The position numbers and the translations under genes were made by a program. From positions 1 through 61,231 of the forward strand of contig JAFEBB010000046.1 in assembly GCA_018266075.1 (NCBI GenBank): 61,231 bases of DNA. The letters run 5' to 3'. Of this stretch, positions 5,626 through 29,304 are shown one piece after another; the first letter of the stretch is position 1; each line of letters starts with the position of its first letter. Origin of the DNA: Deltaproteobacteria bacterium (GTDB lineage Bacteria; Myxococcota; Myxococcia; Myxococcales; SZAS-1). The notes beneath the pieces were generated by a model, which ran no database searches, had not been told where the DNA came from, and saw only the letters and a program-made list of their open reading frames with translations.

Positions 5626-5654
5626 GAAACAGTTTTCCGAGGGTCGTCGTATCC
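5626..5654 (+). promoter_or_regulatory. ECF-type promoter motif I upstream of the sigma-like gene
   Basis: GAAACAGTTTTCCG, then CGTCGTATCC ending at 5654, about 40 bases before the GTG start at 5695. The same arrangement at identical spacing occurs on the minus strand at 17260-17288 before the CarQ-like ECF sigma gene; 23 of 29 positions match and both ends are perfectly conserved. This fits a -35/-10 pair of one ECF sigma factor. Confidence 0.6.
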
Positions 5655-5694
5655 AAGATGAGGTGCGCGACGTCGCCGCCGACCGGGAGTCCTC

Positions 5695-7206: not shown

Positions 7207-9767
7207 CAGAAGCTCCCCTTGGCGCCGAGCACCGGGAGGACGGGGAGACCTCTGAAGTACTCACGTTGTGAATAGTTGTAATTATAAGTCACGCCCTCCA
7301 CCGAGGCGTGGTTGTAGGCGTTGAGCAGATCCAGATAGGCGTCGAGGCTCCAGCGGTCGAAGACCCAGGTCTTGTCCACGCGCACGTCGAGCTGGTGAAA
7401 GGCTGGCAGTCGCTGCGAGTTCACCGCGCCGTAGATGGGCGCGAAGATGTCGAGCCCATCGTTTCGGACGGCGCCCACGGCCGGCGTGAACGGCGTTCCG
7501 GTCGCGTAGCGGAACCGCGCTCCCAGTTGCCAGCCCGCGCCGAGCTTGTAGCTACCGAGCACCGTGAGGACATGGGTCTCGTCGCTGTCGAACGGCCGCC
7601 ACGGGTCGCCAGTGTGATCGCGTCTCTCGCTTCGCGACAATGTGTACGCGAGCCACCCGAAGAAGCGCTGGGTCAGCGCGTGTCGGACCAGCAACTCCGC
7701 GCCATATGCCCGGCCCACACCATCGTTGATGATGAAGGGCGGTGGCGTCGCGTTGCTCACGTACAGTTGTGAGTAGGCATTGTAGAAGCCTTCCAAGCTG
7801 GCGAAATCCGCCGCGCCGATGGTCCACTCCGTACCCAGAGAGAACTGTTCGGCGCGCTTGGCACGAATCTCCGGGTTACCCGTGGCCGCGGTGGGCTCTC
7901 CCTGCTGGGCTGGCTCGTGATACTCGCCTGCACCGGCCTTCAGCACCCATGCGTCGGACAACTTGAAGCGCATGCCCAGTCGGGGATTCACGGAGCGGTC
8001 GGGCGCCTGCTGATCCGAGTAGAGATAGCTCTCCGTGCGAAGGCCGGGCACCAGCAGCAGGCGGGGCCCGAGCCGCAAGCGCGCCTCCACCCAAGCTGCC
8101 GGCAGGTACTCGGTGTAGAAGCCGCGCGCCACGAGCGTCTTCTGCAAGGAGCTGGGAGATGGCGGCTCCCCCTCGCGCGGCTGCGGTGTGGTGGCGGCGG
8201 CCAGCGTGGCGCGAATGTACTGGGTGTCCACGCCGGCCGCAGCGGTGAACGTGTCCGTGACGTCGTACTCGACGCTGCTGCGAAGCGAATACTCGTGCGG
8301 CAGGATGTGCACCGAGGCCGCGGCGCCGACATCGATGGAGATGACGTCGCGACCGATCAACGCGGTGGTGTCTACGCGAAGCCGAGGGCCGACGTAGCGG
8401 TGTCGCAACCGGAGCTGCGTAAAGCCCGTCTCCAGAGCGAAGTTGCCCGCCACGTTCGGATCCGCGTCACTCGGTCGCTGAAACACCAAACCGAGCACAT
8501 CGTCGCTGGTCACCGCCAGCAGGGTCACGGTGTTGTGGGCATCGGGCTTCCACTGCAGCATCAACTGCGCGTCCTGATACCGCGGCGCTACCGCGAAGTC
8601 CGGCGCCTGGTCGTTGCCCGAGGGCATCGCGGCCAGCAACGCATCGATGAACGAGCGACGTCCCGCCAGCGCGAACGAGAGCGTTGAGGTGATGGGACCT
8701 TCGAGTTGCACGCTTGCGTCGAGCAGGCTCAAGGTCACGGAACCGTGAAAGCCGTCTGTCCGCGGCGCGCGACTTCGGACGTCCACGACACCGCCAATCT
8801 GGTCGCCGTAGAAGACGCTGGAGTTGCCGGGCAAGAAGTCGACCGACTGAAGCAAATCGGAGTTGTAAACCGAGGTCAGGCCGCCAAAGTGGAAGAGGAT
8901 CGGAATGCGCATGCCGTCGAGGTACACGCCACTGTCCTCGGGGCTGGTGCCGCGGATGATGAGCTCGCCGCCGAGGCCGGGCGCGTGCGCGACGCCCGGA
9001 AGGTTCTCAACGATCTTGATGCCGTCGCCTTGCGTGCCCGGAGCCTTCTGCACCTCCTCGAGCGTGAGCGTGGTTTGGCTGACCTCTTTGCGCTCCCGCT
9101 GTCCTCGAACCACGGACTCGTAGGGCGAGAACAGCTCCGACTCGAGGTAATAGACCACCGTGGTGAGCTGGCCTGCCGTCACGCGCTCGCGCGTCTCGAA
9201 GCGGCGATAGCCGGGCGCCACCGCCACCACGCGTTGCTCGCCCTCGGGAACCCCAGCCAGCGAGAACTGCCCGTTCACGTCGCTGACGGCGGACTGCCCC
9301 AGCTCGGGAAGCGCCACCTCCACGCCCACGAGCGGCTTGCGTGTGCCGCGCTCGAGCAGCGTGCCCGTGAAGTTGACCGGTGCGGGCGGTGGAGACGCCG
9401 CCGCCGGCTGCTCGGGAGGCTCGAACGTGTAGACATACGTGATGCGCACCGACGCCGGCTTCCCGTCGATCTGGGCGGGCGTGAATCGGAACTGCTTCAG
9501 CGCTTCGACGGCAGCCTCATCGAAGCCGTGACCTGCTCCCTTCAACACCTGGACGTCGAGAACCTGCCCCGACTCGGAGATGTCCACCTGGAGCGCCACT
9601 TCACCGCGAAGGTGCTCGGTCAGAGCCTGCGGCGGATAGGCGGCAACCGCAGCCTGCTCCACCTGGGGGGCTCGCGTTACCGAGCCAGGCGTCGAGGGCT
9701 CGCCGGATGCCGGCGAAGCTGCGCCGCACGCGAAGGCCACGCCAAACCAGATCAGAATCAAGCGCAC
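7206..9767 (-). CDS. TonB-dependent outer-membrane receptor with fused N-terminal TonB domain
   Basis: 853 residues from a GTG. Order of domains: signal peptide (1-22); a TonB C-terminal-type domain at about 35-115 (YPPQALTEHLRGEVALQVDI and VEALKQFRFTPAQIDGKP); a carboxypeptidase-regulatory-like beta domain at about 130-210 (FTGTLLERGTRKPLVGVEV); a plug at about 220-345 (VENLPGVAHAPG, ELIIRGTSPEDSGVYLDGM, SVFYGDQIGGVVDVRS); then the beta-barrel ending in a C-terminal Phe. It should sit in the outer membrane and import or bind an unknown ligand. A TonB energising domain inside the receptor itself is unusual. It forms an ATGA-coupled operon with the downstream lipoprotein. Confidence 0.88.
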   Translation of the reverse strand: MRLILIWFGVAFACGAASPASGEPSTPGSVTRAPQVEQAAVAAYPPQALTEHLRGEVALQVDISESGQVLDVQVLKGAGHGFDEAAVEALKQFRFTPAQIDGKPASVRITYVYTFEPPEQPAAASPPPAPVNFTGTLLERGTRKPLVGVEVALPELGQSAVSDVNGQFSLAGVPEGEQRVVAVAPGYRRFETRERVTAGQLTTVVYYLESELFSPYESVVRGQRERKEVSQTTLTLEEVQKAPGTQGDGIKIVENLPGVAHAPGLGGELIIRGTSPEDSGVYLDGMRIPILFHFGGLTSVYNSDLLQSVDFLPGNSSVFYGDQIGGVVDVRSRAPRTDGFHGSVTLSLLDASVQLEGPITSTLSFALAGRRSFIDALLAAMPSGNDQAPDFAVAPRYQDAQLMLQWKPDAHNTVTLLAVTSDDVLGLVFQRPSDADPNVAGNFALETGFTQLRLRHRYVGPRLRVDTTALIGRDVISIDVGAAASVHILPHEYSLRSSVEYDVTDTFTAAAGVDTQYIRATLAAATTPQPREGEPPSPSSLQKTLVARGFYTEYLPAAWVEARLRLGPRLLLVPGLRTESYLYSDQQAPDRSVNPRLGMRFKLSDAWVLKAGAGEYHEPAQQGEPTAATGNPEIRAKRAEQFSLGTEWTIGAADFASLEGFYNAYSQLYVSNATPPPFIINDGVGRAYGAELLVRHALTQRFFGWLAYTLSRSERRDHTGDPWRPFDSDETHVLTVLGSYKLGAGWQLGARFRYATGTPFTPAVGAVRNDGLDIFAPIYGAVNSQRLPAFHQLDVRVDKTWVFDRWSLDAYLDLLNAYNHASVEGVTYNYNYSQREYFRGLPVLPVLGAKGSF

Positions 9768-9860
9768 TCAATGATGGATGCGCGAATCGGCGTTTCGTTT
9801 CTCATCGTGCGGGTCGCGCACCGAAGATCGGTCGAACCACCAGACCTGGCCAGCGTGCAC

Positions 9861-10237: not shown

Positions 10238-12460
<2,223 letters not shown>

Positions 12461-12544
12461 TCAAAGATGCTGGGTCGAGGTCAAGAACTCCAAGACATCG
12501 TCTGGATGAAGTTGATAACCAGGCCTTATCGCTGTTCGTGAGGC

Positions 12545-12829
12545 TCAGAGCTTGAGCCCGTCGTGCTCGATGACGAGCTCCAGGGCGTCCTCGAGCGCGC
12601 GGCGAGCGGCCACGGCCAGGTCGTAGAGGCGCTGGTGCACGGCCTGGTCGGCCGCATTGGCGTTGGCACAGCCGCGCTCGTAGTCCTCGAAGAGGCCGAG
12701 CTCGCGCACCAGCCGAGCCACCTGGTTCGGACACTCGCACTTGATGGAGTTGTCGATCTCGAGGAGCCGACCGAGCTGCTCCGGCGTGAAGCGGCGGGGC
12801 GCCGGCTCCTGGGCGTGCTTGAGGTCCAT
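12545..12829 (-). CDS. Small CxC-domain protein, unknown function
   Basis: 94 residues from ATG 12827-12829 behind GGAGAACGTCGC. The core is NSIKCECPNQVARLVRELG, FEDYERGCANANAADQAVH, then a long helix AARRALEDALELVIEHDG. The same pattern (CxC, about 20 residues, ER-C, a His, then AR-AL--A--LV) is present at the C-terminus of the upstream protein 12847-13428, only 17 bases away. The two genes therefore share a domain and probably work together. The fold is predicted helical. I do not recognise a characterised family; a metal-binding or protein-interaction role is speculative. Confidence 0.65.
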   Translation of the reverse strand: MDLKHAQEPAPRRFTPEQLGRLLEIDNSIKCECPNQVARLVRELGLFEDYERGCANANAADQAVHQRLYDLAVAARRALEDALELVIEHDGLKL

Positions 12830-12846
12830 GCGACGTTCTCCTGAAA

Positions 12847-13428
12847 TCAGCTTCTCGGGGCCGGCGGGCGAACCAGGGTGACCGCGCGTTGCAGGGCATC
12901 TCGCGCCTCTCGCGAGAGGGCGTCGAGCTGGGCGTGGGTGGCGGCGCCCAGTCGATCGCGGTGCGGGCAGCTGCGCTCCCGTGCCTCGAGCTCGATGAGG
13001 GCCGAGGCGGCGCGCTCCGTTTCGCTCACGCAAGCGCAGGCGACGTTCGATGCGGGCCGCGCCGAGAGCAGGTCGCGCACGAGCAGGAAGGCGAGGTGCG
13101 CGCGCAGCGAGCCGAGGCTCAGCGGCGCCTGCAGCACGCGGATGCGCTCGTCGCGGAGGTCGCGAAGGAAGGCGCGGGTGGTGAAGCCGTAGCTCACCAC
13201 CGCGAGCTCGGCGTGGGAGCGGCTCACCAGGGAGCGAATGGAGTCGGCGGAGAGTCCCGCCTGGTCGGCCACCTCGAGCGCCAGCGCGTCGACGCGCAGC
13301 GCAGGGAGTTGGCGCTCCAGCGCAGCGACTTCGGAGCCCACCCAGGCCACCTCGACCTCACCCAGCGCTTCTGGGTTGGTGCGAAGCTGCTCGGCGAACT
13401 GCGAGCCTACGAGCGCCACCCGGACCAT
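12847..13428 (-). CDS. Receiver-like protein with C-terminal CxC domain, unknown function
   Basis: 193 residues from ATG 13426-13428 behind GAGGTGGCAGC; a longer start at 13494 has a poorer ribosome site. Residues 1-120 alternate beta strands and helices like a Rossmann or receiver domain (MVRVALVGSQFAEQLR, LPALRVDALALEV, ELAVVSYGFTTRAFL). The canonical phospho-acceptor pattern is not evident. Residues about 130-190 repeat the CxC domain of the next gene (NVACACVSETERAASALI, ELEARERSCPHRDRL, then AREALQRAV-type helix). The two genes are 17 bases apart and surely co-transcribed. A regulatory role is inferred only. Confidence 0.6.
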   Translation of the reverse strand: MVRVALVGSQFAEQLRTNPEALGEVEVAWVGSEVAALERQLPALRVDALALEVADQAGLSADSIRSLVSRSHAELAVVSYGFTTRAFLRDLRDERIRVLQAPLSLGSLRAHLAFLLVRDLLSARPASNVACACVSETERAASALIELEARERSCPHRDRLGAATHAQLDALSREARDALQRAVTLVRPPAPRS

Positions 13429-13609
13429 TGCTGCCACCTCGTCCACGCCCCAGAATTGGGATGCGCGAGCGCGCCGGTCGTTTCGCTGGGACATCCCGGT
13501 CTACGAGGCATCCCGCTCCTGCAGCAGGCCCAAGCCGCCCCAGGCCTCGAGGGCCACCAAGCCGTCACGGCCTGCGGCACCTCGACCTGGGGGTCGCGGC
13601 CCACGCCTG

Positions 13610-14965: not shown

Positions 14966-15568
14966 GTGCGTTCGAAATCCAAGAGGGCCAGGGGGCCGGC
15001 GGTGGTCCGGCGCGTGCTCGAGGTGACCCTCGAGGAGCTGGGTCGCGTCGGCTTTGCGCGGCTGAGCCTGCCCCACGTGGCTGAGCGCGCGGGGATCAAC
15101 AAGACCAGCCTCTACCGTCGGTGGGCCACGAAGGACGACCTGGTGAGCGCGGCGCTGGGCCTGGCCGTCCCGGTCGAAGGGGAGCTTCTCGAGCACGGCG
15201 ATCTGGAGCGAGACCTCGTGGAGCTCGCTTCGACGCTGGGCGCGTTCCTCGCTTCGCCGGCCGGGATGGGGCTGCTGCGCGCCGTGTTCGCGGACGGCGA
15301 CACCTCCCAGACCCGTCGGCTCTCGAGGACGATGTGGGGCGGCACCGCGCGAACGGCGCCCAGGCGCGTCCTCGAGCGAGCCGTGTCTCGCGGCGAGCTG
15401 CGTCGCGACGCGGATCTCGACCTGCTCCTCTTCACCGTTGCCGGTGCCGTGCTCCACCGCTGCTTCGTCGAGCGCCGGCCTGCCGACCGCCATTGGGCCC
15501 ATGGGCTCGTTCGACTGCTCGCGCAGGGCGTGGGCCCATCTCCGAAGCAGGCCACGCGGCGCGTCTAG
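14966..15568 (+). CDS. TetR-family repressor of the glycosyltransferase gene
   Basis: 200 residues from a GTG (VRSKSKRARG). The nearest ATG, at 14958, is out of frame. The N-terminal helix-turn-helix is typical: RRVLEVTLEELGRVGFARLS, VAERAGINKTSLYRRWATK. The C-terminal ligand domain is variable (GLLRAVFADGD, LLLFTVAGAVLHRCFVERRP). Two palindromic operators lie directly upstream. The stop overlaps by two bases the stop of the convergent sigma-like gene. The inducing ligand is unknown. Confidence 0.85.
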   Translation: MRSKSKRARGPAVVRRVLEVTLEELGRVGFARLSLPHVAERAGINKTSLYRRWATKDDLVSAALGLAVPVEGELLEHGDLERDLVELASTLGAFLASPAGMGLLRAVFADGDTSQTRRLSRTMWGGTARTAPRRVLERAVSRGELRRDADLDLLLFTVAGAVLHRCFVERRPADRHWAHGLVRLLAQGVGPSPKQATRRV

Positions 15569-16026
15569 CGAATCGCCTCCGCCGCCCGCGCCTGCGGTTC
15601 CCGGATCGAAGGCCGCTCCACCGAGAGGAGACGCGCTCGACGCAGCTCGCTGGCGAGGTCGGCCTCGTCGAGCACCCACGCGGCCTCGGCGAGCGAGAAG
15701 CGCAAGCCGTCCACGAGGAGCAGCGCCAGCCGCTGAATCAGGTTCGGTCCCGTGATGTCGCCCAGAGCGCGAAGCTGGCGCACCGCGAGCCGACCGAGCC
15801 AGAGATCGGTGCGATACGCGGGCAGCTCCGGGGCCTGGAGCGCCTCGAGCATCGTGCGCTGGAGCACCTGCTCCACCACGGCGCCATCGCTGAGCGCCAC
15901 CCGCGCCAGGTTGTAGACGGCCTTGGCGTGCCGGGCCACGAAGAGCCGCTGCGCTTCCGGGTCGCCCTGCCTCGAGGCGAGCAGCACCGCGTCTTGCTGC
16001 GCGAGGACGTCGAGATTTCGGGTCAT
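15565..16026 (-). CDS. Sigma-factor-like protein, third gene of the ECF1/anti-sigma operon
   Basis: 153 residues. Region-2-like start: LLASRQGDPEAQRLFVARH, AVYNLARVALSDGAVVEQVL. The C-terminal part keeps a faint region-4.2 outline (GLRFSLAEAAWVLDEADLAS then ELRRARLL) but without a normal recognition helix. It follows the NrsF-like anti-sigma gene by 24 bases and the ECF1 gene before that, so all three should be one transcript. Its paralogue at 5695-6099 lies next to crtU. In M. xanthus the equivalent third position of carQRS is the antirepressor CarS, which is unrelated in sequence. A role as antagonist or decoy of the anti-sigma is inferred. Confidence 0.65.
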   Translation of the reverse strand: MTRNLDVLAQQDAVLLASRQGDPEAQRLFVARHAKAVYNLARVALSDGAVVEQVLQRTMLEALQAPELPAYRTDLWLGRLAVRQLRALGDITGPNLIQRLALLLVDGLRFSLAEAAWVLDEADLASELRRARLLSVERPSIREPQARAAEAIR

Positions 16027-16050: not shown

Positions 16051-16698
16051 CTAGGGAGCAAAGGACGCAGGCCGCAGTCGCCGCGACACGGCCCAGGAGA
16101 GCGTGACGACCAGCAGCCACGCGGGGAGATGGAAGAGCGCCACGTGCCGCGCGCCCTGGCCACAAGCGAGCTCGCCGAGCGCCGCGCCGGGCACGCCGGC
16201 CGCGAGCCCGCCCGCGAGCGCGCGCCACACGCTCGGCGCCGCGACGCGCATGCGCCAGAGCACCACCGCCAGCGGCACCAGGTCCACGCCGAGGTGGCTC
16301 ACCGTGCAGACCCACTGCGGCAGCGGGCTGGTCAGCCCCGGACCACGCATCGCCACGATCGCGCAGATGGCCAGCGCGGCGCTGGCGAGCGCGAGCGCCG
16401 AGCGCGCCCGGGTCGGGGGCGCGATCGCTGCCCAACCGCCGAAGCCGACGGCCATCAGCAACAGCCCCACGTCCACGAAGCGCGCGGGCCCGACGTTCAC
16501 CGCCCAATTTCCAGCGAGCCCCAGCGCCCCGGCGAGCAACACGGTGAAGCCCGCGAGCCCCGCAACCAGGATCGCTGCATCGCGCCGCCACCGACGAGGC
16601 GGCTCCGCGAGCGCGGCCCCCAGCGCGCCGCGCACGCGCTGCAGCGCATCGGCGTTCAGGGCAGGCGTCGTCTGACGGGAGAGCTCTTCGGGAGTCAT
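16051..16698 (-). CDS. NrsF/CarR-like six-helix membrane anti-sigma factor
   Basis: 215 residues. After a short cytoplasmic N-terminus (MTPEELSRQTTPALNADAL) come about six hydrophobic segments, such as ILVAGLAGFTVLLAGALGLA, VDVGLLLMAVGFGGWAA, SALALASAALAICAIVAM, LVPLAVVLWRM and LPAWLLVVTLSWAV. Length and topology match the DUF1109/NrsF group, to which M. xanthus CarR is similar in layout. It starts inside the stop of the sigma gene (ATGA overlap), so the two are made in stoichiometric coupling. It should hold ECF1 at the inner membrane until a signal, perhaps singlet oxygen or membrane damage, releases it; that signal is inferred from CarR. Confidence 0.8.
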   Translation of the reverse strand: MTPEELSRQTTPALNADALQRVRGALGAALAEPPRRWRRDAAILVAGLAGFTVLLAGALGLAGNWAVNVGPARFVDVGLLLMAVGFGGWAAIAPPTRARSALALASAALAICAIVAMRGPGLTSPLPQWVCTVSHLGVDLVPLAVVLWRMRVAAPSVWRALAGGLAAGVPGAALGELACGQGARHVALFHLPAWLLVVTLSWAVSRRLRPASFAP

Positions 16699-17243
16699 GC
16701 GTCCTCCCGGAGATCGGCGAGCTTCTCGCGCAGCACCTCGTAGCCGCGGTGGGCCCGGATGCGGACGGCCGTCGCGGTGGCGCCCAACATCGTCGCCAGC
16801 TCCTCGAAGGTGAAGCCCATCAGGTGGTGCAGCACCACCGCCTCGCGCTGGGCCAGCGGGAGCGATTGCAGCGCGCCCTCCAGCCGGCGGCGCAGCACGG
16901 GATCGGCGGGCGCCGTCGCGTCGGCTTCGTGGGTGAGCGCCTGCTCGTCCTCGGGCGAGGCTGCGGGCGAGCGCTGCCGCACCCGCAGGGCATCGCGGGC
17001 GGCGTTGGCGGCGATGGCGAAGAGCCAGGGCGCGACCTTCGAGCGGCGGTCGAAGCGGTCGCGCGAGCGGATAACAGAGACGAACGTGGTCTGAAGGAGG
17101 TCCTCCGCCAAGGCCGCGTCTCCGGTGACGCGGGCCAGGAACCCGTGCAGCTCGGGGGCGCGACGCGTGTACAGGGCGTCGAGCGCGGTCGTGTCGCCTT
17201 GGCAGAAACGTTCCATCAGGTCTTCGTCGGTCGGCGTGCCCAT
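16695..17243 (-). CDS. ECF sigma factor (ECF1, CarQ-like context)
   Basis: 182 residues. Region 2 is seen in ALYTRRAPELHGFLARVTGD, AEDLLQTTFVSVIRSRDRFD and APWLFAIAANAARDALR. Region 4 is seen in LPLAQREAVVLHHLMGFTFE followed by ELATMLGATATAVRIRAHRG. It should direct transcription of a small regulon including itself. The promoter motif I lies immediately upstream on the same strand (17260-17288). That would give a very short leader, and no Shine-Dalgarno is visible, so translation may be nearly leaderless. The overlapping NrsF-like gene is its likely anti-sigma factor. I do not call it carQ outright because CarS is absent from the operon. Confidence 0.88.
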   Translation of the reverse strand: MGTPTDEDLMERFCQGDTTALDALYTRRAPELHGFLARVTGDAALAEDLLQTTFVSVIRSRDRFDRRSKVAPWLFAIAANAARDALRVRQRSPAASPEDEQALTHEADATAPADPVLRRRLEGALQSLPLAQREAVVLHHLMGFTFEELATMLGATATAVRIRAHRGYEVLREKLADLREDA

Positions 17244-17259: not shown

Positions 17260-17288
17260 GGATACGACGGGTCCCGAAAAAGTGTTTC
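17260..17288 (-). promoter_or_regulatory. ECF-type promoter motif I upstream of ECF1
   Basis: On the minus strand: GAAACACTTTTTCG, then CGTCGTATCC. It ends 16 bases before the ECF1 start and matches the copy at 5626-5654 in spacing and in 23 of 29 bases. Autoregulation by ECF1 is the simplest reading. Confidence 0.6.
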
Positions 17289-17310: not shown

Positions 17311-17338
17311 GCGAAACGTCCTGCCGGCTGGCGCATCC
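17311..17338 (+). promoter_or_regulatory. ECF-type promoter motif II upstream of ECF2
   Basis: GCGAAACGTCCTG then CCGGCTGGCGCATCC. The copy at 29277-29304 is identical at 26 of 28 positions. AAC-G/T-T, 16 bases, TCC-T/A-A resembles an RpoE-type promoter. It is 77 bases before the ECF2 start. Confidence 0.65.
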
Positions 17339-17415: not shown

Positions 17416-18033
17416 TTGAGCCCCCTCCGCGAAACCACTCCCACCGACGATGCCGTCCTCGTGGAGCGCGCCCGCGACGGGCAGCCGGGCGCCTTCGAGG
17501 CGCTGGTTCGACGGCACTCCGGCCGGGTGTACCGCCTGGCCCTGCGCATGACGGGAAGCGCGCAGGACGCGGAGGAGATCACCCAGGAGACGTTCCTCTC
17601 GGCGCACCAGGGGCTCGCCCGCTTCCGCGGTGAGGCCGCGGTCACCAGCTGGCTCCACCGCATCGCCGCCAACTTCGCGCTCATGCGACTGCGTCACCGA
17701 AGGATCTCGGGAGCGGCGGAGGAGCAGCTCACCCAGAGCGTGGGCCCACACGAGGACCGCGCGCCGCCCGCCTATCCGATCGCGCAGGCGAGCGTGCACA
17801 CCGAGCAGCACCTGCTCGACGTGGAGCTGCGGCGCGCCATCGAACAGGCCGTCGACCGCCTGCCCGACGAGTACCGGGTGGTCTTCTTGCTTCGCGATGT
17901 GGAGGACCTCTCGTACGAGGAGATCGCCGAGGCCACCTCGAGCACCGTGCCGGCGATCAAGAGCCGGCTTCACCGGGCGCGGCTCGCGCTCCGGCAAGCC
18001 ATTCAGGACTTTTACGCCGAGCACCCGCGCTGA
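17416..18033 (+). CDS. RpoE-like ECF sigma factor (ECF2)
   Basis: 205 residues; the start is a TTG (MSPLRETTPTDD), with no better in-frame choice. Region 2: AFEALVRRHSGRVYRLALRM, AEEITQETFLSAHQGLARF, SWLHRIAANFALMRLRHRR. Region 4: LPDEYRVVFLLRDVEDLSYE, then EIAEATSSTVPAIKSRLHRA. The linker between regions (about residues 100-135) is long. It is followed after 57 bases by a zinc-finger anti-sigma gene, the usual RpoE/RseA-type arrangement. Motif II upstream suggests it transcribes itself, the hydrolase gene at 29341 and perhaps the crt operon. Confidence 0.9.
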   Translation: MSPLRETTPTDDAVLVERARDGQPGAFEALVRRHSGRVYRLALRMTGSAQDAEEITQETFLSAHQGLARFRGEAAVTSWLHRIAANFALMRLRHRRISGAAEEQLTQSVGPHEDRAPPAYPIAQASVHTEQHLLDVELRRAIEQAVDRLPDEYRVVFLLRDVEDLSYEEIAEATSSTVPAIKSRLHRARLALRQAIQDFYAEHPR

Positions 18034-18090: not shown

Positions 18091-18357
18091 ATGTCGTCTC
18101 AACGCCCAGCCTCGACGTCCATCGCCTCCTGCGCAGAGGTCGACGCCAAGCTCTTCGAGCTCACCGAGAACGAGCTGCCCGCGGCTGAGACCGAGCGGCT
18201 CATGGCGCACGCGCGTGGATGCGCGGGGTGTGCGGACCTCGTGGAGAGCTACAGGGCCACGCCCGTTCTTGCCCGCCGGGTGCTGCTCGAGGACGTCCCG
18301 GTCGATGTGACCGAGCGGCTGCTCGGCGTCATCGCGCAGAACGTGAATCGGAAGTAG
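18091..18357 (+). CDS. Zinc-finger anti-sigma factor for ECF2
   Basis: 88 residues, cytoplasmic, with no membrane segment. The zinc-binding anti-sigma pattern is clear: CAEVDAKLFELTENELPAAE, then RLMAHARGCAGCADLVESY with H-x3-C-x2-C. It should bind ECF2 and release it on oxidation or metal loss. The last 29 bases overlap the 3' end of the convergent crtYd gene, so the two transcripts are antisense at their ends. Confidence 0.85.
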   Translation: MSSQRPASTSIASCAEVDAKLFELTENELPAAETERLMAHARGCAGCADLVESYRATPVLARRVLLEDVPVDVTERLLGVIAQNVNRK

Positions 18358-18954: not shown

Positions 18955-19499
18955 GGCCGCTCCTGGAGCACGGCGGTGAGCGTGTCGAAGAACGCCGCGC
19001 GCTCGGCTGGGCTCAGCGCTCCCTCGTGTCGAAAGCGCACCTGGCCCGCTCGATCGACGATGACCACCGTGCTCACCTTGGCCGGAAATCCCCAGCGGCG
19101 CGCCGCCTCGCCCGTCCAGTCCATCAGGATCTCCACGCCGAGCTCGCGCGCCGTGCGCACCACCGCGTCGCGCGCGAAGCCACGCGCGGGCCAGAAGTCG
19201 AGCCCGACGAGGTTCGCGATGGGCCAGAGCGTGACCTCGTGTGCGAGCGCTCTGTTCCGCGCGCGTTCGCCCAGCTCGCGCTTGAGCGCTGCGTTCTGCT
19301 CCGTGGCGTGTCGGTCCTCGTAGACGATGACCACGGGCCGTCCCCGCTCCTCTTCCAGATGGCGGACGTGGCCCGCGGTGTCGGGCAGAGCCAATTCGGG
19401 TGCCGCCTGCCCGATCGACGAGAGCACCGCGACGATCACCAAGCCGAGCACGAGGACCTCCACGGAGAGCCAACCGAAACGCGAACGCAGCCGGCGCAT
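18951..19499 (-). CDS. Cysteine-less thioredoxin-fold (YtfJ-like) exported protein
   Basis: 182 residues. The N-terminal hydrophobic stretch VLVLGLVIVAVLSSIGQAAP is a signal peptide or anchor. The rest follows a thioredoxin fold: LALPDTAGHVRHLEEERGRP, VVIVYEDRHATEQNAALKRE, then STVVIVDRAGQVRFRHEGAL. No cysteine occurs anywhere, so it cannot do disulfide chemistry. Length and motif order resemble E. coli YtfJ. It is first gene of the crtYc-crtYd operon (GTGA overlap with crtYc). A structural or chaperone role for cyclase or carotenoid handling is a guess. Confidence 0.7.
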   Translation of the reverse strand: MRRLRSRFGWLSVEVLVLGLVIVAVLSSIGQAAPELALPDTAGHVRHLEEERGRPVVIVYEDRHATEQNAALKRELGERARNRALAHEVTLWPIANLVGLDFWPARGFARDAVVRTARELGVEILMDWTGEAARRWGFPAKVSTVVIVDRAGQVRFRHEGALSPAERAAFFDTLTAVLQERP

Positions 19500-19504
19500 C
19501 GAAT
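19474..19504 (+). promoter_or_regulatory. Weak match to promoter motif II before crtE
   Basis: CCGAAACG, 12 bases, then CCGGCGCATCGAA, with GAAAC and GCATC at the same spacing as in motif II (17311-17338). It lies about 45 bases ahead of crtE but inside the first codons of the divergent redoxin gene, so chance similarity in Arg codons is possible. Confidence 0.3.
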
Positions 19505-19547
19505 GGGTCGAATGAGATGCGCGAGGCGCGCGCGAGGTTCGCTTTCC

Positions 19548-20618
19548 ATGACGAGTGCGGTCTCGGCTTCATCGCCCACCCAGCCTTCCAGTCACGACGC
19601 GCTGGAGCGGGCGCTCGCACGGGCCACGGCGCGGTTGGTCCGTGTGCCCGAGGCGGCGCGCGGCTGGGCCGACTCGCTGCGCGAGCTCACCGCGCGGCCG
19701 GGCAAGCGCGTCCGGCCGTGGCTCTGCGCGCTCGCGTACGAAGGTGTGGCACACGTGCCGGCGAGCGAGGCGGTGCTCGACTTTGCGGCAGGCCTCGAGC
19801 TGCTGCACGCGTTCATGCTCGTCCACGACGACATCATCGACGGCGCCGACGTGCGTCGCGGTGCTCCGGCGCTCCATCGCGCGCTGGAGACCACCCACGG
19901 AACGCAGGCCAACGCGCTGGCCCTGCTCGGCGGTGACGCGCTCTTCGTCGCCGCGGTGGACGCGATGGCGCGCGCAGCCGTGCCCGCCGACCGCATGCGC
20001 GACGCGCTCGCCGTGGTGCTCGAAGGCGCGCGGCAGGCGGCGGTCGGCGAGATGCTCGATGTCTCGTACGCGCGGCAGCCGCTCACCTCGCTGAGCTCCG
20101 CGCGCCTGGCCGACGTGCTGCGCCTCAAGACAGCGGGCTACACCTTCGTGGCGCCGCTCGTGGCGGGCGCGGTGCTCGCTGGGGCGAGCGCGTCGACGCG
20201 TCGCGCGCTCACCCAGTTCGGCCAGCGCGTGGGCCTCGCGTTCCAGCTCGCCGACGATCTGCTCGACATCTACGGCGACGCCGCGCAGCTCGGGAAGCCC
20301 GTCGGCGGCGATCTGCGCGAGGGCAAGCGAACGGTGTTCGCGCGGCTCCTGGCCGCTCGCGCCTCGCCCGACGATGCCCGACGCTTCCTCGCGCTCCTCG
20401 ACGGTCGCGCTGCCGACGCGGGCGACCTCGAGTGGGTGCGCGAGCTCGGACGCCGCAGTGGCGTGGCCAGCGAGCTCGCTGCCCGCGTGCGCACTTTCAT
20501 TGCTGCGGGAGAGCGCTGTCTGGATCGCGCGGCGCTGGATGCGAACGCGGCGACGCAGCTCCGCGGCCTCGCGCGCAAGGTCGCTGCGAGCGTTTCCTTC
20601 CTGGAGAGTGGGTCATGA
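19548..20618 (+). CDS. crtE: Geranylgeranyl diphosphate synthase CrtE
   Basis: 356 residues, trans-prenyltransferase making the C20 precursor of carotenoids. Both Asp-rich motifs are visible: LVHDDIIDGADVRRG (first, near residue 95) and FQLADDLLDIYGDAAQLGKP (second, near 235). The lead-in region is RPGKRVRPWLCALAY. The start MTSAVSASSPT is chosen because it lies clear of the divergent redoxin gene; only 48 bases separate them. It is first gene of a seven-gene operon in which each following start overlaps the preceding stop. Confidence 0.92.
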   Translation: MTSAVSASSPTQPSSHDALERALARATARLVRVPEAARGWADSLRELTARPGKRVRPWLCALAYEGVAHVPASEAVLDFAAGLELLHAFMLVHDDIIDGADVRRGAPALHRALETTHGTQANALALLGGDALFVAAVDAMARAAVPADRMRDALAVVLEGARQAAVGEMLDVSYARQPLTSLSSARLADVLRLKTAGYTFVAPLVAGAVLAGASASTRRALTQFGQRVGLAFQLADDLLDIYGDAAQLGKPVGGDLREGKRTVFARLLAARASPDDARRFLALLDGRAADAGDLEWVRELGRRSGVASELAARVRTFIAAGERCLDRAALDANAATQLRGLARKVAASVSFLESGS

Positions 20619-22123
20619 CCGAGCGGGTTCTCATCGTTGGAGCGGGCGTCGGTGGACTGGCGACCGCCATTCGCCTTCAAGCCGCGGGCAAGCAGGTGCA
20701 CGTGGTGGAGCGGGCCCAGGAAGTGGGCGGCCGCTGCAGCCGCATCCGCGACGGCGGCTTTCAGTTCGACGTGGGGCCCACGCTGCTCTTGATGAAGCCC
20801 GTCTTCGAGGAGCTCTTCGCCAGCGCGGGCCGCAAGCTCTCCGACTACCTCGAGCTCAGCCCGTGCGATCCGAACTACGAGATCTGGTTCGGCGACGGCG
20901 AGTCGGTGGTGTTCTCGACGCAGCTCCGCGAGATGCAGAAGGAGCTGGAGCGGCTCCAGCCCGGCGCGTTCGGCGGCTACCTCCGGTACCTGGAGGAGGG
21001 CCGCAAGGGCATGGCCGCGTCGCTGGATCGCTTCGTGGGCCGGAACTTCGACTCGCTCGCCCAGTTCGCCACGCCGGCCAACTTGAAGACCGTCCTCGAT
21101 GTGAACGCGCACCGCTCGCTCTACAGCGTGGTCTCGCGCCACTTCCACGACGAGCGGCTGCGCATCGCGCTCTCGTTCCAGACCATGTACCTGGGCATCT
21201 CGCCATACGAAGCGCCGGGCGTGTACTCGCTGCTCCCCTACACCGAGCTCGCGGACGGCATCTGGTTCCCGAAGGGCGGCCTGTATGCCGTTCCCCAGGC
21301 CTTGGAGAGGTTGGCCCGCGAGCTGGGCGTGACCTTCGAGCTCGGCAAGGCCGTGGCGAAGGTGGAGATCGAAAACAACGTCGCGCGCGGGGTGCACCTC
21401 GCCGACGGCTCGCGGCGCTCGGCAGACACGGTGGTGCTCAACGCCGACCTGCCCTACGCGTACCGCGAGCTCCTGCCCGACTCGCCGCTGCCGCGCGCAG
21501 ACAAGCTCAAGTTCACCTCCAGCGCGCTGATGTTCTACTGGGGCCTCGACCGCCAGGCGCCGCGGCTGCGGCACCACAACATCTTCCTCGCCGACTTCGC
21601 CGACAACTTCGCGGACATCTTCGAGCGCGGGCGCGTGCCCGAGGACCCGTCGTTCTACGTGAACGTGGCCACCCGAAGCGATGCCTCGCTGGGCCCGGCC
21701 GGACGCGACGGCGTGTACGTGCTCGTGCCCGTGCCGCACCTCGGCCCGCGCATCGACTGGGACGCCGAGGTGAAGCGCGTCCGTGAGCGCGTGCTCACGC
21801 GCCTGGCTGGGGCGGGCTGCGACCTGCGCGGGCACATCGCGCTCGAGCACGTCCGCACGCCCAAGGACTGGCGCGATGGGCTGAACCTCGAGCACGGCGC
21901 CGCGTTCGGGCTCTCGCACGACCTGTTCCAGGTGGGCTACTTCCGCCCGGCCAACCAGCACGCACGTTACAAAAATGTTTACTTCGTGGGCGCGAGCACC
22001 CAACCCGGCACGGGCCTGCCGATGGTGGTCTTGAGCTCGCGGCTCACCACGGAGCGCATCATGAAGGCGCTGGCTGCGCGGGCGTCGGCGCCGGCGACGC
22101 GGATGGTGGGAGACGCGGCGTGA
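20615..22123 (+). CDS. crtI: Phytoene desaturase CrtI
   Basis: 502 residues, FAD enzyme introducing double bases into phytoene. N-terminal dinucleotide fold: RVLIVGAGVGGLATAIRLQA, VERAQEVGGRCSRIRDGGF, FDVGPTLLLM. C-terminal carotenoid desaturase signature: NVYFVGASTQPGTGLPMVVL. The start overlaps the crtE stop (ATGA). In the M. xanthus cluster two CrtI-type enzymes act in turn; by position and sequence this one corresponds to CrtIb, but the exact number of desaturation steps cannot be read from sequence. Confidence 0.9.
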   Translation: MTERVLIVGAGVGGLATAIRLQAAGKQVHVVERAQEVGGRCSRIRDGGFQFDVGPTLLLMKPVFEELFASAGRKLSDYLELSPCDPNYEIWFGDGESVVFSTQLREMQKELERLQPGAFGGYLRYLEEGRKGMAASLDRFVGRNFDSLAQFATPANLKTVLDVNAHRSLYSVVSRHFHDERLRIALSFQTMYLGISPYEAPGVYSLLPYTELADGIWFPKGGLYAVPQALERLARELGVTFELGKAVAKVEIENNVARGVHLADGSRRSADTVVLNADLPYAYRELLPDSPLPRADKLKFTSSALMFYWGLDRQAPRLRHHNIFLADFADNFADIFERGRVPEDPSFYVNVATRSDASLGPAGRDGVYVLVPVPHLGPRIDWDAEVKRVRERVLTRLAGAGCDLRGHIALEHVRTPKDWRDGLNLEHGAAFGLSHDLFQVGYFRPANQHARYKNVYFVGASTQPGTGLPMVVLSSRLTTERIMKALAARASAPATRMVGDAA

Positions 22124-22992
22124 ACGCGGAGCTGGCCCAGGGGTTTCGCCTGGCACGCGAGCGAACGCGGCTGGGTTCGCGCTCGTTCTACTTCGCCTCG
22201 CACCTGCTCGATGGGCCGCGTCGCGCCGGGGCGTACGCGCTCTACGCCTTCCTGCGCGAGGCAGACGACGCCGCCGACTCCCCGGGAACGCCCGACGCCC
22301 GCTCAGAACGCGTGCGCCGAGTTCGCAGCGCGCTCGAACGCGCGTATTCCGGCAAGCCCACCTCGGCGCTGGAGCATGCGCTCTCGAGTGCCGTGCAGAC
22401 CTTCGGTCTCCCAAGAGAGCCGCTGGAGGAGTTGGTGGCCGCAGTCGGCGCGGAGGTGGAGCGGGTTCGCGTGGCCACCTGGTCAGAGCTCGGGCGTTAC
22501 TGCCACGGGGTCGCCTCCACGGTTGGGTTGGCCATGGCGCCGCTCCTCGGTGCGCCCCAGGGCTTTGAACGAGAAGCGGCCGCGCTGGGTCACGCGATGC
22601 AGCTCACGAACATCCTCCGCGATGTGCGCGAGGACGTGCTCAACGATCGGGTGTATCTGCCGGCCGAAGCGCTGCGTGCGGCAGGGATCACCGAGCTTGA
22701 CCTGGCGCGCGGCCAGCTCGACGACCGCTGGCGCGCGCTCGCGAGCCAGGTGGCCGCGCGCGCGAACGAGGCCTACGACGCCGCCGAGCCGGGAATCCGC
22801 GCCATCGCCCCCTGGCGCTCACGCACCACGGTGCGGCTCATGCGCGCCAGCTACCGCGAGATCCTCCGCGAGATCGAGCGACGCGCCTTCGACGTGTTTC
22901 GCGAGCGCGTGGTCATCTCCACCTCACGCAAGCTCTGGCTGGCGACGCGCGTCATCGCCGGTGCAGATCCGGCCGCGCCCGGTGCGCACTGA
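22120..22992 (+). CDS. crtB: Phytoene synthase CrtB
   Basis: 290 residues from a GTG overlapping the crtI stop. It condenses two geranylgeranyl diphosphates to phytoene. Substrate-binding motifs: AYALYAFLREADDAAD (first Asp-rich, near residue 45) and TNILRDVREDVLNDRVYLP (second, near 165). YCHGVASTVGLAM is also typical. Cytosolic or peripheral at the membrane. Confidence 0.93.
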   Translation: MNAELAQGFRLARERTRLGSRSFYFASHLLDGPRRAGAYALYAFLREADDAADSPGTPDARSERVRRVRSALERAYSGKPTSALEHALSSAVQTFGLPREPLEELVAAVGAEVERVRVATWSELGRYCHGVASTVGLAMAPLLGAPQGFEREAAALGHAMQLTNILRDVREDVLNDRVYLPAEALRAAGITELDLARGQLDDRWRALASQVAARANEAYDAAEPGIRAIAPWRSRTTVRLMRASYREILREIERRAFDVFRERVVISTSRKLWLATRVIAGADPAAPGAH

Positions 22993-24476
22993 TGCGCGCG
23001 GTCGTGGTGGGAGCGGGACTGGGCGGCCTGTCCGCGGCCATCCACCTCGCGGCTTCGGGCGCGCGCGTGACCGTGCTCGAGGCCGCGGCGGAGGTCGGCG
23101 GGAAGGCTTCGCGCGTTCGCGAGAGCGGCTTCGCCTGGGACACCGGGCCGACCCTGCTCACCATGCCGCACGTCCTCGACGAGACCCTCGCGCTGGCCGG
23201 CACCTCTCTGCGACGCGAGCTCCAGTTCGCCGAGCTGGAGCCGCTCTGTCGGTACCGGTTCGCGTCGGGTAAGTCCTTCGATCAGCTCGCCGATGCGAAG
23301 CGAACCGAGCAGGCGCTGTCGCGCGTCGACGAGCATGACGCGCGTGCCTGGCCGGCGTTCATGGCGCGGGCGCGCGAGCTCTACGAGGCCGCGGGCGCGC
23401 CCTACCTCGGCGTTCCCTTCGCGAGCGCGCTCGGCTTCACGGCTCGCATGGCCACGGGGGCCGGGGCGCTGACGGCCGCGCGTGCGTCCGTTCAGAGCCT
23501 CGCCGAGCTCGCGCGTGCGCACTTTCGCTCGCGCGAGCTGCAGCAGTGGGCCGGTCGATTCGCGACCTACGCGGGCGGCGCTCCGAACCAGACGCCCGCG
23601 CTCTTCGCGATGGTGGCGCACGTGGAGGCGCGAGGTGATGCGCTCTATCCGCTCGGTGGCATGCACGCCGTGGCCGGGGCGCTGGCCCGTGCGGCCCGGC
23701 GGCTCGGCGTGGAGATCCGCACCGGTGAGCCCGTGCGCGCGGTGCAACACCGCAGCACCGGATTTCTGATCAGGACACCGGGCGAGCTCTTCCCTGCGGA
23801 TTCGGTCGTCCTCAACGTGGACCCGCACCTGGCTGCGGGGATGTTCGAGCCGGGAAGCGTCGAGGCTCGGCAGCTCTCGCGCGGTCGCGGCCGCGTGCGT
23901 TCGCTCTCGGGCGCTGTGCTTCTGCTGGGCCTGAAGGGGCGCACGCCGGGACTCGCGCTCCACAACGTCTTCTTTCCTGACGACGTGGAGGACGAGTTCG
24001 CGGCCATCTTCGATCGCGGTGAGCTGCCGCGGGAGCCGACCGTCTACGTGTGCGCGCCCTCCCCCTGCGACGACTCGGCGGCGCCGCCCGACCACGAGGC
24101 GCTCTTCGCGCTCGTGAACGCGCCGGCCCGACCCGAGCTGGATGTCGACGCACTTCACCGACAGGTTCGCCAGGCCGTGCTCGCGCGGTTGTCCAAGCTC
24201 GATCCGGAGATCGCGTCGAGGATCGTGGTGGAGCGCGTGCGTGGCCCGCGCGATCTGGCCGCGACCGGATCTCTCGACGGCGCCATCTACGGCGCCGCGC
24301 CGCACGGACTGGGCGCTGTGCTGGCTCGACCGTCCCAGCGCGTCACGCGCGGGCTGTACCTCGCCGGCGGCGCGACGCATCCCGGCGGTGGCGTACCCAT
24401 GGTCGTGCTCTCCGGCAAGCATGTGGCGGCGCTGGCACTGCGGGAGCTCGGCGGTGCGCGGGAGCTGCGCGCATGA
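22992..24476 (+). CDS. Second CrtI-family carotenoid desaturase (CrtD/CrtIa-like)
   Basis: 494 residues; the ATG shares one base with the crtB stop. FAD fold: AVVVGAGLGGLSAAIHLAAS, LEAAAEVGGKASRVRES, WDTGPTLLTMPHVLDETL. C-terminal signature LYLAGGATHPGGGVPMVVLS. It is shorter and only distantly related to the first desaturase. Beside crtC, it may act as a CrtD-type desaturase on 1-hydroxy carotenoids or as the second phytoene desaturase (CrtIa) of the two-enzyme myxobacterial scheme. Sequence reading alone does not separate these. Confidence 0.82.
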   Translation: MRAVVVGAGLGGLSAAIHLAASGARVTVLEAAAEVGGKASRVRESGFAWDTGPTLLTMPHVLDETLALAGTSLRRELQFAELEPLCRYRFASGKSFDQLADAKRTEQALSRVDEHDARAWPAFMARARELYEAAGAPYLGVPFASALGFTARMATGAGALTAARASVQSLAELARAHFRSRELQQWAGRFATYAGGAPNQTPALFAMVAHVEARGDALYPLGGMHAVAGALARAARRLGVEIRTGEPVRAVQHRSTGFLIRTPGELFPADSVVLNVDPHLAAGMFEPGSVEARQLSRGRGRVRSLSGAVLLLGLKGRTPGLALHNVFFPDDVEDEFAAIFDRGELPREPTVYVCAPSPCDDSAAPPDHEALFALVNAPARPELDVDALHRQVRQAVLARLSKLDPEIASRIVVERVRGPRDLAATGSLDGAIYGAAPHGLGAVLARPSQRVTRGLYLAGGATHPGGGVPMVVLSGKHVAALALRELGGARELRA

Positions 24477-25357
24477 ACGGACCGAGCTTCGAAACGTCTG
24501 GCGCGTATCGCTGGTGGTACGTGGACGCCGTGTCCCACGACGGCCGGCGCGCGCTCGTGGCCATCTTGTTCAGCGGCGCGGTCTTCTCGCCGTACTACGC
24601 CGCGCGCTTGCGGGAGGGCGAACCCGCTCTTCCCGACGAGCACGCCGCGATCCACCTGGCGCTCTACGAGGACGGCAAGCGCGTCTTCTGGACGCTCGGC
24701 GAGCGACCCTTCCCCGTCAACGCGAGCGGCTCCGAGGTGGGCCTCTGGGGCAGCACGCTCACGCGCAGCGGCGACCGCTGGCGGCTCACGTTCGACGCGC
24801 GCTGGCCCCGGGCGCTGCGCGGCGAAATCGAGCTCGAGCCCGAAGCGCCGCCCTTGACCGAGCAGCCGATCCTCCTCGCGCCGGGCGTGGCTGGACACCT
24901 CTGGCACGGGCGCGTCCCGCGAGCGCGCGCGCGGGTGCGGCTGCACGAGCCCGACTTTCGGTTCGAGGGCCGCGGCTACCACGACGCCAACGGGGGACCC
25001 GAGCCACTCGAGCGCGCGCTGCGAGGTTGGGTGTGGTCGCGCGAGCACGCGGGCGAAGCGACGCGCGTGCACTACGACGTCGTGGCGCGGAGCGGCGAGC
25101 GCTTCCGTCACGCGTTCGGTGGCGAGCCCGCGGTGGAGAACGAGGGCGCCCGCACCTTGTGGCGCGTGCAACTCCCGGCCGAGATCGGTGGTGCGCGTCC
25201 TGGGCCGGTGATCGAGAGCGCGCCGTTCTATGCGCGGTTTCTCCTCTTTCGCGGCGGCCAGACGACGGGCATGGGCGAGAGCCTCGACCTCGCCCGGTTC
25301 GACCTTGGCGTGGTCCGCTGGATGCTGCGCTGGAAGACGCGGAGGCGCGCCGCATGA
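24473..25357 (+). CDS. crtC: Carotenoid 1,2-hydratase CrtC
   Basis: 294 residues, ATGA-coupled to the preceding desaturase. It adds water across the terminal 1,2 double bond of an acyclic carotenoid end, giving the tertiary alcohol later glycosylated. Recognised by YRWWYVDAVSHDGRRALVAI, LFSGAVFSPYYAARLR, the central FEGRGYHDANGGPEPLERAL and GWVWSREHAGE. No signal peptide or membrane segment is obvious. Confidence 0.87.
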   Translation: MNGPSFETSGAYRWWYVDAVSHDGRRALVAILFSGAVFSPYYAARLREGEPALPDEHAAIHLALYEDGKRVFWTLGERPFPVNASGSEVGLWGSTLTRSGDRWRLTFDARWPRALRGEIELEPEAPPLTEQPILLAPGVAGHLWHGRVPRARARVRLHEPDFRFEGRGYHDANGGPEPLERALRGWVWSREHAGEATRVHYDVVARSGERFRHAFGGEPAVENEGARTLWRVQLPAEIGGARPGPVIESAPFYARFLLFRGGQTTGMGESLDLARFDLGVVRWMLRWKTRRRAA

Positions 25358-26445
25358 GCTGGCTGCTCGTCGCGCCGGCGCTGCTGGCGCTGGGTTTCAC
25401 GCTCGTCGCCACGGCGGCGGTGCTCCTCGAGCGCGCGCGCCGACCGAAGCCGCTGCAGAGCTGGCCGCCGCTCCTGGTTCTCCGTCCGTGCGAAGGTGAT
25501 GAGCCCGAGCTGGCCGAGCGCCTTCGCTCCACGCTGCAGACCGGCTACGCGGGCGAGGTGCGGCTCGTGGTGGGACACGGGCCTGCGCTCGGTCGCGTCG
25601 CAGTCGAGGCCACGTTCATCGCGAGCCCGCCGTCCATCGACAACGTCAATCGAAAGGCCTGGCACCTCGCGAGCGCGTTGGACGCCGTGCCGCCGCGCGG
25701 AAGCGAGCTGGTGCTCGCCATCGACGCGGACGTGCACGTCACGCGCGCTCTCCTCGAAGCATTGGCGAGCGCCACCCAAGCACGTGGCGTGGTCGCCGCG
25801 TTCGCGCCGCCGGTGCAGCACGGTCGACCGCTCGCAGCGCGCCTGGCCGACGCCGCACTCGCGGGTTCGCCGCACGCCTTTCTCTCGCTGGCCGCCCTCG
25901 CGCGCCTGACGAACTCCACGCCGCCGATGGTGGGATGCGCGATCGCGGTCCGACCCGATGCGCTGAACGCGATAGGCGGATTCCGCGCGGTGCTCCGAGC
26001 GATCGGTGACGACCTGGCCCTGGCTTCGGCGCTGTCGACCCAAGGCCGCGTGGCCGTGGCCTGGGCTCTGGCCGACTGCCGCGACCCGAACCAAGGGGCC
26101 AGCTCGCTGGTCGCGCAGCTCTCACGCTGGATTCGCGTTGCCACGGCGCATCGGCCGCATCTCATGTGGACCTACGCGCTGCTCATCGCACCGCTGCCGT
26201 TGGCCGCGCTGTCGCTCGTGGTGACGCCCTGGGTATCCGTCGCACTCCTGGCGAGCCGGGCGGTGCTCGCAGCAGTCCAGCGCGCGCTGCTCTACGGCGG
26301 GGTCAGCGCGGCACTTTGGGATCCACTCCTCGCCGAGGTGACGTGGTGGGCGGCGATGCTCGGCGCGCTGGGCACACGCGCCGTGAGCTGGCGCGGGCGG
26401 CGCTATCGCATCCATCGAGGCGGCGCGCTCGAGGATGCCTCGTGA
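25354..26445 (+). CDS. Family-2 glycosyltransferase of the carotenoid operon (CruC/HpnI-like)
   Basis: 363 residues, ATGA-coupled to crtC. An N-terminal membrane helix (LLVAPALLALGFTLVATAAV) is followed by a GT2/GT21 catalytic domain: PPLLVLRPCEGDEPELAERL, IDADVHVTRALLEAL (DxD-like), and the ceramide-glucosyltransferase-type C-terminal Q-x-x-R-W motif (AQLSRWIRVA). Two or three helices end the protein. Its place after crtC suggests transfer of a sugar to the 1-hydroxyl of the carotenoid, as CruC does on hydroxychlorobactene. The acceptor is inferred from context. Confidence 0.8.
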   Translation: MSWLLVAPALLALGFTLVATAAVLLERARRPKPLQSWPPLLVLRPCEGDEPELAERLRSTLQTGYAGEVRLVVGHGPALGRVAVEATFIASPPSIDNVNRKAWHLASALDAVPPRGSELVLAIDADVHVTRALLEALASATQARGVVAAFAPPVQHGRPLAARLADAALAGSPHAFLSLAALARLTNSTPPMVGCAIAVRPDALNAIGGFRAVLRAIGDDLALASALSTQGRVAVAWALADCRDPNQGASSLVAQLSRWIRVATAHRPHLMWTYALLIAPLPLAALSLVVTPWVSVALLASRAVLAAVQRALLYGGVSAALWDPLLAEVTWWAAMLGALGTRAVSWRGRRYRIHRGGALEDAS

Positions 26446-27140
26446 TCCCGGACGCGTGGTTCCGCTGGGCCTTCGCGCTCTACGCCCGACGCCTCCTCGC
26501 ACGGCACGCGGCGATCGTGCGTCGGCGCGGCGTCTTGCCCAAGCGCGGTGAGCGCGTGCTCTACCTCGTCAACCACTCGAGCTGGTGGGACGCGCTGGTG
26601 GTCGTTCTGCTCTCGCGCGAGATCGGCGGCGATCAGCTGGCCTTGATGGGCGAGGCCGGGCTGCGGCAATTCCCGTTCTTTGGGCGGCTGGGCGCGCTGT
26701 CGGTTCCGGCATCGCGGGGCCCGCGCGAGGTGCTTCGCTTGTTTCGCCAGGTCCGCGCGCGCGTCGATGCCGGAGCCCAGGTCTGGATGTTTCCCCAAGG
26801 CGAGCAGCGGCACCCGGACGTGCAGCCGCTCGGCTTCGAGCGGGGCGCCGACGTGCTCGCCCGGACGCTCGCGCCGTGCCGCGTGGTGCCGATTGCGCTG
26901 CGGTGGGAGACGTGGCGTTGGCAGCACCCGGAGCTTCTGGTGTCGATCGGTGAGCCGCTCGAGGTGGCGGGCGATCTGAAGCCGGGCGCACTCGAGGAGC
27001 TTCTCGCGCGCGAAGTCTCCACGTTGCGGTCCGACTGCATCGCTCAGAGGACGGACAATTTTGCGACCTGGATTCGCGGCCGCTCGAGCGTGAGCGATGT
27101 GTGGCTCGCGGCGAAGTCCACGGTCCAGGAGCGGGGTTGA
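26442..27140 (+). CDS. PlsC-type acyltransferase of the carotenoid operon (CruD-like)
   Basis: 232 residues from a GTG overlapping the previous stop. The catalytic motif NHSSWWD (NH-x4-D) is present. The glycerol-3-phosphate-type second motif is altered to FPQGEQRHPD rather than FPEGTRS, in line with a different acceptor. As last gene of the operon after the glycosyltransferase, it probably esterifies the carotenoid sugar with a fatty acid, giving carotenoid glycoside esters like those of myxobacteria and green sulfur bacteria. Confidence 0.8.
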   Translation: MIPDAWFRWAFALYARRLLARHAAIVRRRGVLPKRGERVLYLVNHSSWWDALVVVLLSREIGGDQLALMGEAGLRQFPFFGRLGALSVPASRGPREVLRLFRQVRARVDAGAQVWMFPQGEQRHPDVQPLGFERGADVLARTLAPCRVVPIALRWETWRWQHPELLVSIGEPLEVAGDLKPGALEELLAREVSTLRSDCIAQRTDNFATWIRGRSSVSDVWLAAKSTVQERG

Positions 27141-29276: not shown

Positions 29277-29304
29277 GCGAAACTTCCGGCCGGCTGGCGC
29301 ATCC
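29277..29304 (+). promoter_or_regulatory. ECF-type promoter motif II upstream of the lipoprotein hydrolase
   Basis: GCGAAACTTCCGG then CCGGCTGGCGCATCC, followed by AA. 26 of 28 bases equal the copy before ECF2 (17311-17338). AACTT, 16 bases, TCCAA is a good RpoE-like promoter and lies 36 bases before the ATG at 29341. Confidence 0.7.

Follow-up and report, generated by a model that had tools for sequence, protein, structure and literature searches.

A clustered, putative ECF-type promoter motif and its candidate sigma factor at a carotenoid and oxidative-stress locus of a myxococcal bacterium

Two nearly identical 28-base elements lie some 12 kb apart in a 61,231-nucleotide stretch of DNA from a member of the Myxococcales (hereafter the window, meaning the whole of the stretch that was analysed), one before the gene of an RpoE-like sigma factor, ECF2, and the other before that of a lipoprotein hydrolase. 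They raise the question of which genes share such an element and which sigma factor, if any, reads it. The two elements, GCGAAACGTCCTGCCGGCTGGCGCATCC (17311-17338, plus strand) and GCGAAACTTCCGGCCGGCTGGCGCATCC (29277-29304, plus strand), are identical at 26 of 28 bases on direct reading, with two differences, and have the layout AACTT/AACGT-N16-TCCAA/TCCTA, as the earlier note had described. With up to three mismatches permitted, two copies were found in the window and none across 100 dinucleotide shuffles, and the search for further copies which that note had proposed yielded no third full-length copy in the whole 7.84-Mb genome. The flanks of the two elements showed no similarity, so the two do not belong to a longer repeat. 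The dispersed-repeat reading, named beforehand as one case that would undo the interpretation, could thus be discarded on the grounds of genome-wide copy number and dissimilar flanks. Most of the spacer is common to the two elements, designated E3 and E5, with the shared stretch CCGGCTGGC.

Beyond this pair, the exact sequence GAAAC-N15-GCATCC was found twice more, on the minus strand in both cases (E1 and E2), and a variant with a final G was found once, on the plus strand (E4). The core, GAAAC-N15-GCATC[C/G], is referred to here as motif II; its five window copies all fall within 20 kb and at the 5’ ends of genes (Table 1). At one mismatch or fewer, a spacing of 15 gave seven matches in the window, as against 0 to 3 for any other spacing between 8 and 24. 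All of E1 to E5 lie outside coding-like sequence and in the right orientation, with a start codon 8 to 77 nt downstream, whereas the other genomic matches are mostly situated inside genes.

Clustering was assessed by whole-genome pattern scans and against 0.8 Mb of other contigs. The scan pattern (GAAAC, 14-17 bases, GCATCC), which had been fixed from the terminal parts of E3 and E5 alone, yielded eight matches genome-wide and none for the reversed control. Five of the eight have the 15-base spacing, four of them on the window contig, which represents 0.8% of the genome; the fifth precedes guaA. When the two pattern-defining copies are left out, two of three N15 matches are on the window contig, with a probability of approximately 2e-4 by chance. 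The refined pattern GAAACN13SCGCATCS gave five window matches against 0.01 expected in shuffles, a contrast that looks better than it is, since those same five sites had served to refine the pattern. A PWM built from the five sites placed six window positions at 19 or above, the next in the window scoring 11.1, and none at 17 or above among 1.6 million positions elsewhere in the genome (the 0.8 Mb of other contigs). In leave-one-out runs every site ranked first or among the top ten of 122,000 positions.

Several further candidates were rejected. A seventh element before a Rieske oxygenase gene (29238, minus strand) was dropped, its PWM score of 11.1 being at background. Approximately 94 one-mismatch sites outside the window were also discounted as extra members; most are intragenic, and those that appear intergenic precede guaA, an alanine-dehydrogenase-like gene, a kinase and others, an incoherent set. 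The clustered arrangement was not found among 99 relatives, where the background is about one match per genome. In one relative (G005; L007, C1:4159246-4159271), whose genome has an ECF2 ortholog and gave no CarQ match, a DoxX-like gene is preceded at some 40 nt by a motif-II-like sequence, GAAACTTCCCGCCGGCCCGCGCATTC; given that background the sequence probably arose by chance, and it was set aside as a regulon member.

Table 1. Promoter-like elements and genes of the locus
Feature	Position	Strand	Remarks
Motif I, second copy	5626..5654	+	GAAACAGTTTTCCGAGGGTCGTCGTATCC; before sigma-like ORF; near-identical to 17260..17288 copy
Sigma-like protein B	5695..6099	+	134 aa, degenerate; behind second motif-I promoter
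TonB_C + TonB-dependent receptor	7206..9767	-	853 aa
E1	9776..9801	-	Motif II directly before TonB-receptor gene, 8 nt to start
katG gene set	10238..13428	-	Predicted operon
Catalase-peroxidase katG	10238-12421	-	
95-aa ORF	12545-12832	-	
193-aa ORF	12847-13428	-	
E2	13459..13484	-	Motif II, 30 nt before 193-aa ORF start
Sigma-like protein A	15565..16026	-	153 aa, degenerate; occupies carS position
CarR ortholog	16051..16698	-	41% identity to Myxococcaceae CarR next to carQ orthologs
ECF1, CarQ ortholog	16695..17243	-	Divergent from ECF2
Motif I, CarQ-type promoter	17260..17288	-	GAAACACTTTTTCGGGACCCGTCGTATCC; before ECF1/carQ
E3	17311..17338	+	GAAAC-N15-GCATCC, 77 nt before ECF2 TTG start
ECF2, RpoE/AlgU-like ECF sigma factor	17416..18033	+	TTG start
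Soluble zinc anti-sigma	18091..18357	+	88 aa; zf-HC2, HxxxCxxC; no predicted TM helix
Lycopene-cyclase subunit crtYd	18329-18655	-	
Lycopene-cyclase subunit crtYc	18652-18951	-	
YtfJ/AhpC-like gene	18951-19499	-	
E4	19476..19501	+	GCATCG variant, 46 nt before crtE ATG
E6 (tentative)	19515..19540	-	GAACC-N15-GCATCT, PWM 19.3; weaker, faces E4
Carotenoid operon	19548..27140	+	crtE-crtI-crtB-crtD-crtC-glycosyltransferase-acyltransferase
crtE	19548-20618	+	
crtI	20615-22123	+	
crtB	22120-22992	+	
crtD	22992-24476	+	
crtC	24476-25357	+	
Glycosyltransferase	25357-26446	+	Carotenoid operon
Acyltransferase	about 26443-27140	+	Carotenoid operon
E5	29277..29304	+	Motif II, 36 nt before lipoprotein hydrolase ATG
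Lipoprotein hydrolase	29341..30549	+	PETase/chlorophyllase-like alpha/beta hydrolase domain

The genes behind motif II form a functionally coherent set of pigment, catalase, envelope and sigma genes, from which the region can be read as a carotenoid and oxidative-stress locus with the hydrolase as one target among several. The small regulon envisaged at the outset, comprising ECF2 and an exported esterase, is therefore drawn too narrowly, with at least five putative promoters that include those of the carotenoid operon and the katG gene set. Operon boundaries were set from gene spacing. The 193-aa ORF behind E2 begins with an ATG at 13428 and has the ribosome site GAGGTGG; neither it nor the 95-aa ORF, which both come before katG, gave a Pfam or NCBIfam match. 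Transcription from E1 would give a near-leaderless mRNA. No orthologs of the hydrolase were found in 60 relatives at an E value of 1e-20. The tentative site E6 would cover ytfJ-like-crtYc-crtYd. E4 and E6 face each other across 19476-19540 and their predicted start points fall on approximately the same base (19508), so that two polymerases could not bind together.

Two divergent ECF sigma factor genes lie in the locus. AlgU, SigW, SigE and RpoE are the nearest solved relatives of ECF2. In the loop that reads the -10, ECF2 has FRGEAAV, similar to the FRGDSAF of RpoE/AlgU; the loop is kept as FRG[D/E] in the ECF2 orthologs, which were found across the order. The zinc motif of the anti-sigma encoded directly downstream of ECF2 reads HARGCAGC, and most ECF2 orthologs likewise have the zinc motif downstream. 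Redox sensing is common among anti-sigma factors of this class (PMC7406223). ECF2 carries motif II at its own promoter (E3), whereas none of 57 ECF2 orthologs has the motif upstream and 45 of the 57 have a sigmaA-like TTGAC; autoregulation of ECF2 would therefore be specific to this lineage. The GTDB genome set held no useful close relatives of ECF2.

ECF1 is followed by a hydrophobic CarR ortholog for which a crude scan predicted five TM segments, compared with the published six, and a CarR-like membrane anti-sigma likewise comes next in the Myxococcaceae relatives of ECF1. The motif before ECF1, motif I, is GAAAC-N17-CGTATCC with a T-rich tract; it has two copies in the window and resembles the carQ promoters of relatives, which are of the GAAAC-N16/17-CGT type (GAAAC-N16-CGTCC in the Myxococcaceae). 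An FAD amine-oxidase-type protein related to HpnE and carotene desaturases is encoded near the second copy (3860-5656, minus strand) and may represent a further carotenoid or hopanoid gene. The -35 GAAAC of motif II is identical to that of CarQ-type promoters, whereas the -10 and the spacing differ. Since each sigma gene is preceded by a different motif, motif II was assigned to ECF2.

From the positions and clustering of the sites and the identities of the genes behind them, it is inferred that E1 to E5 are ECF-type promoters serving a local regulon that extends from 9.8 to 29.3 kb, most likely read by ECF2, a reading to which a probability of about 0.58 is given. As regards the autoregulated sigma-E-type promoter suggested by the earlier note, the sites do look ECF-type and one of them precedes ECF2, making autoregulation plausible; control by ECF2 is probable to the degree just given. 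Points that weigh against the proposal are the lack of motif II upstream of the 57 ECF2 orthologs, the failure to find the clustered arrangement among the 99 relatives, the -35 held in common with CarQ promoters, the almost leaderless position of E1, the imperfect matches of E4 and E6, and the many other ECF candidates in the genome (78 matches at first look). Were motif II driven by ECF1 instead, CarQ-CarR would directly control the crt genes and ECF2 would form a second tier. ECF1 sits in the same cluster, the GAAAC -35 is shared, the Myxococcaceae promoter GAAAC-N16-CGTCC is close in spacing to GAAAC-N16-CATCC, and carQRS and crtIb are known targets of CarQ in Myxococcus xanthus (PMC8156234, PMC9304148). 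The window’s own carQ promoter and the second motif-I copy nevertheless both have the GAAAC-N17-CGTATCC form with its T-rich tract. Scored with a CarQ-promoter model, E1 to E6 range from 5.5 down to -13.6 as against 10.1 for the window’s own carQ promoter, in a model that is poorly specific here, chance window matches scoring as high as that promoter and several window positions, one of them the second motif-I copy, outscoring it. Motif II may instead be read by CarQ, a serious and the main alternative, though a less likely one than ECF2.

The spacer shared by E3 and E5 bears on two other explanations. A bipartite ECF promoter has no need of a conserved spacer, and this likeness, together with the number of ECF candidates in the genome, would suit a site for another ECF factor or an operator, spacer included, for a DNA-binding regulator. 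Such a reading is improbable, as the remaining sites have in common just the two terminal parts, a constant distance apart, and every site stands at promoter distance from a start. The same spacer identity suggests that one element may derive from the other, so that E3 and E5 would be a recently copied promoter fragment, or a chance likeness, without shared regulation; the flanks are unlike, and three more independent sites occur in the same 20 kb with virtually none elsewhere, which leaves this explanation hardly credible.

Under the preferred reading, with ECF2 as the factor that recognises motif II, the soluble zinc anti-sigma, which probably senses redox state or zinc in the cytoplasm, would sequester ECF2 until light or oxidative stress, the presumed signal, causes the anti-sigma to let go. 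Free ECF2 would then transcribe its own sigma/anti-sigma pair, providing autoregulation, as well as the carotenoid operon, the katG set, the TonB-linked receptor, the exported hydrolase and, by way of the weaker E6, ytfJ-like-crtYc-crtYd. Divergently, CarQ-CarR would run its own promoter type.

Promoters of Escherichia coli RpoE and Pseudomonas AlgU have an AAC-containing -35, a spacing of 16-17 bases and a -10 with TC. Motif II fits this outline and the -10-reading loop of ECF2 is similar; in contrast, the -35 is GAAAC here rather than GGAACTT, the anti-sigma is soluble rather than a membrane protein such as RseA or MucA, and the targets are carotenoid and ROS genes. In Rhodobacter sphaeroides, photo-oxidative (singlet-oxygen) defence is under the zinc-anti-sigma control of sigmaE-ChrR, an ECF11 system (PMC6852236), which the locus resembles in the pairing of an ECF sigma with a zinc anti-sigma in the cytoplasm, in its likely autoregulation and in its putative role in photo-oxidative defence. 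At 88 aa, however, the window anti-sigma is too short to accommodate the cupin-like sensor domain of ChrR, and ECF2 is closest to AlgU/RpoE/SigW, not ECF11.

The CarQ-CarR-CarS system of M. xanthus is matched by the orthologous ECF1, the CarR-like anti-sigma, the syntenic crtE-crtI-crtB-crtD-crtC order and the GAAAC -35 promoters. The search for CarS, CarA and CarH covered the window or its vicinity. Both carR and carS accompany carQ in every carQ-bearing species surveyed (PMC8156234, PMC9304148), and one inspected Myxococcaceae ortholog operon has CarS (match to 2KSS, E 3.9e-32), whereas no significant match to CarS was obtained in the window and a degenerate sigma-like gene stands in its place. 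The carB operon of M. xanthus has a sigmaA promoter (P_crt/P_B) under CarA/CarH (PMC8156234, PMC9304148); here, in contrast, an ECF-type element precedes crtE, its motif is common to katG and ECF2, and the crt cluster showed neither carA nor carH.

A small degenerate sigma-like gene lies behind each of the two CarQ-type promoters, and the products (A and B) are 44% identical to each other. Against ECF2 orthologs these proteins gave E values of 4.8e-9 and 2.2e-8, and against CarQ orthologs 2.3e-6 and 1.3e-3. Protein A was modelled from an alignment of two sequences; the predicted structure (mean pLDDT 80) shows a sigma2-like bundle and ends in a short part resembling sigma4, and it gave weak matches (E of approximately 1e-3) to sigma factors solved with anti-sigmas, with PhyR further down. 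Both proteins resemble ECF2 more than CarQ, and they might titrate the anti-sigma of ECF2 and so link the two circuits. Their position behind motif I, mutual identity, ECF2-leaning scores and sigma-like model suggested a more specific but speculative scheme, considered unlikely, in which sigma mimicry takes the place of CarS. Light or singlet oxygen would free CarQ from CarR, the freed CarQ would transcribe both sigma-like genes from motif I, the resulting decoys would take the place of ECF2 on the zinc anti-sigma, and the released ECF2 would act at motif II to transcribe the genes for carotenoids and ROS defence. With respect to the sigma-like proteins only, the putative binding of an anti-sigma by a sigma-like protein recalls PhyR-NepR-EcfG. 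Unlike PhyR they have no receiver domain, and any control would be transcriptional.

Control of carotenogenesis by ECF factors is already known, and the present arrangement is a variation on such control. Here an ECF promoter, of the kind also placed before the katG set, appears to govern the crt genes directly, beside a CarQ-CarR pair without CarS, and the defence against light and oxidation is probably switched on by wiring other than that known in Myxococcus. If this is confirmed, a textbook light response has been rewired in nature, and the two-sigma circuit that results is compact enough for stepwise reconstruction and testing. The side finding of the sigma-like genes may outweigh the main finding in importance, as they offer a concrete, testable idea for the cross-triggering of ECF circuits. 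If true, the mimicry would be an equivalent, at the level of transcription, of the PhyR partner switch, with decoy sigmas allowing one ECF circuit to trigger another.
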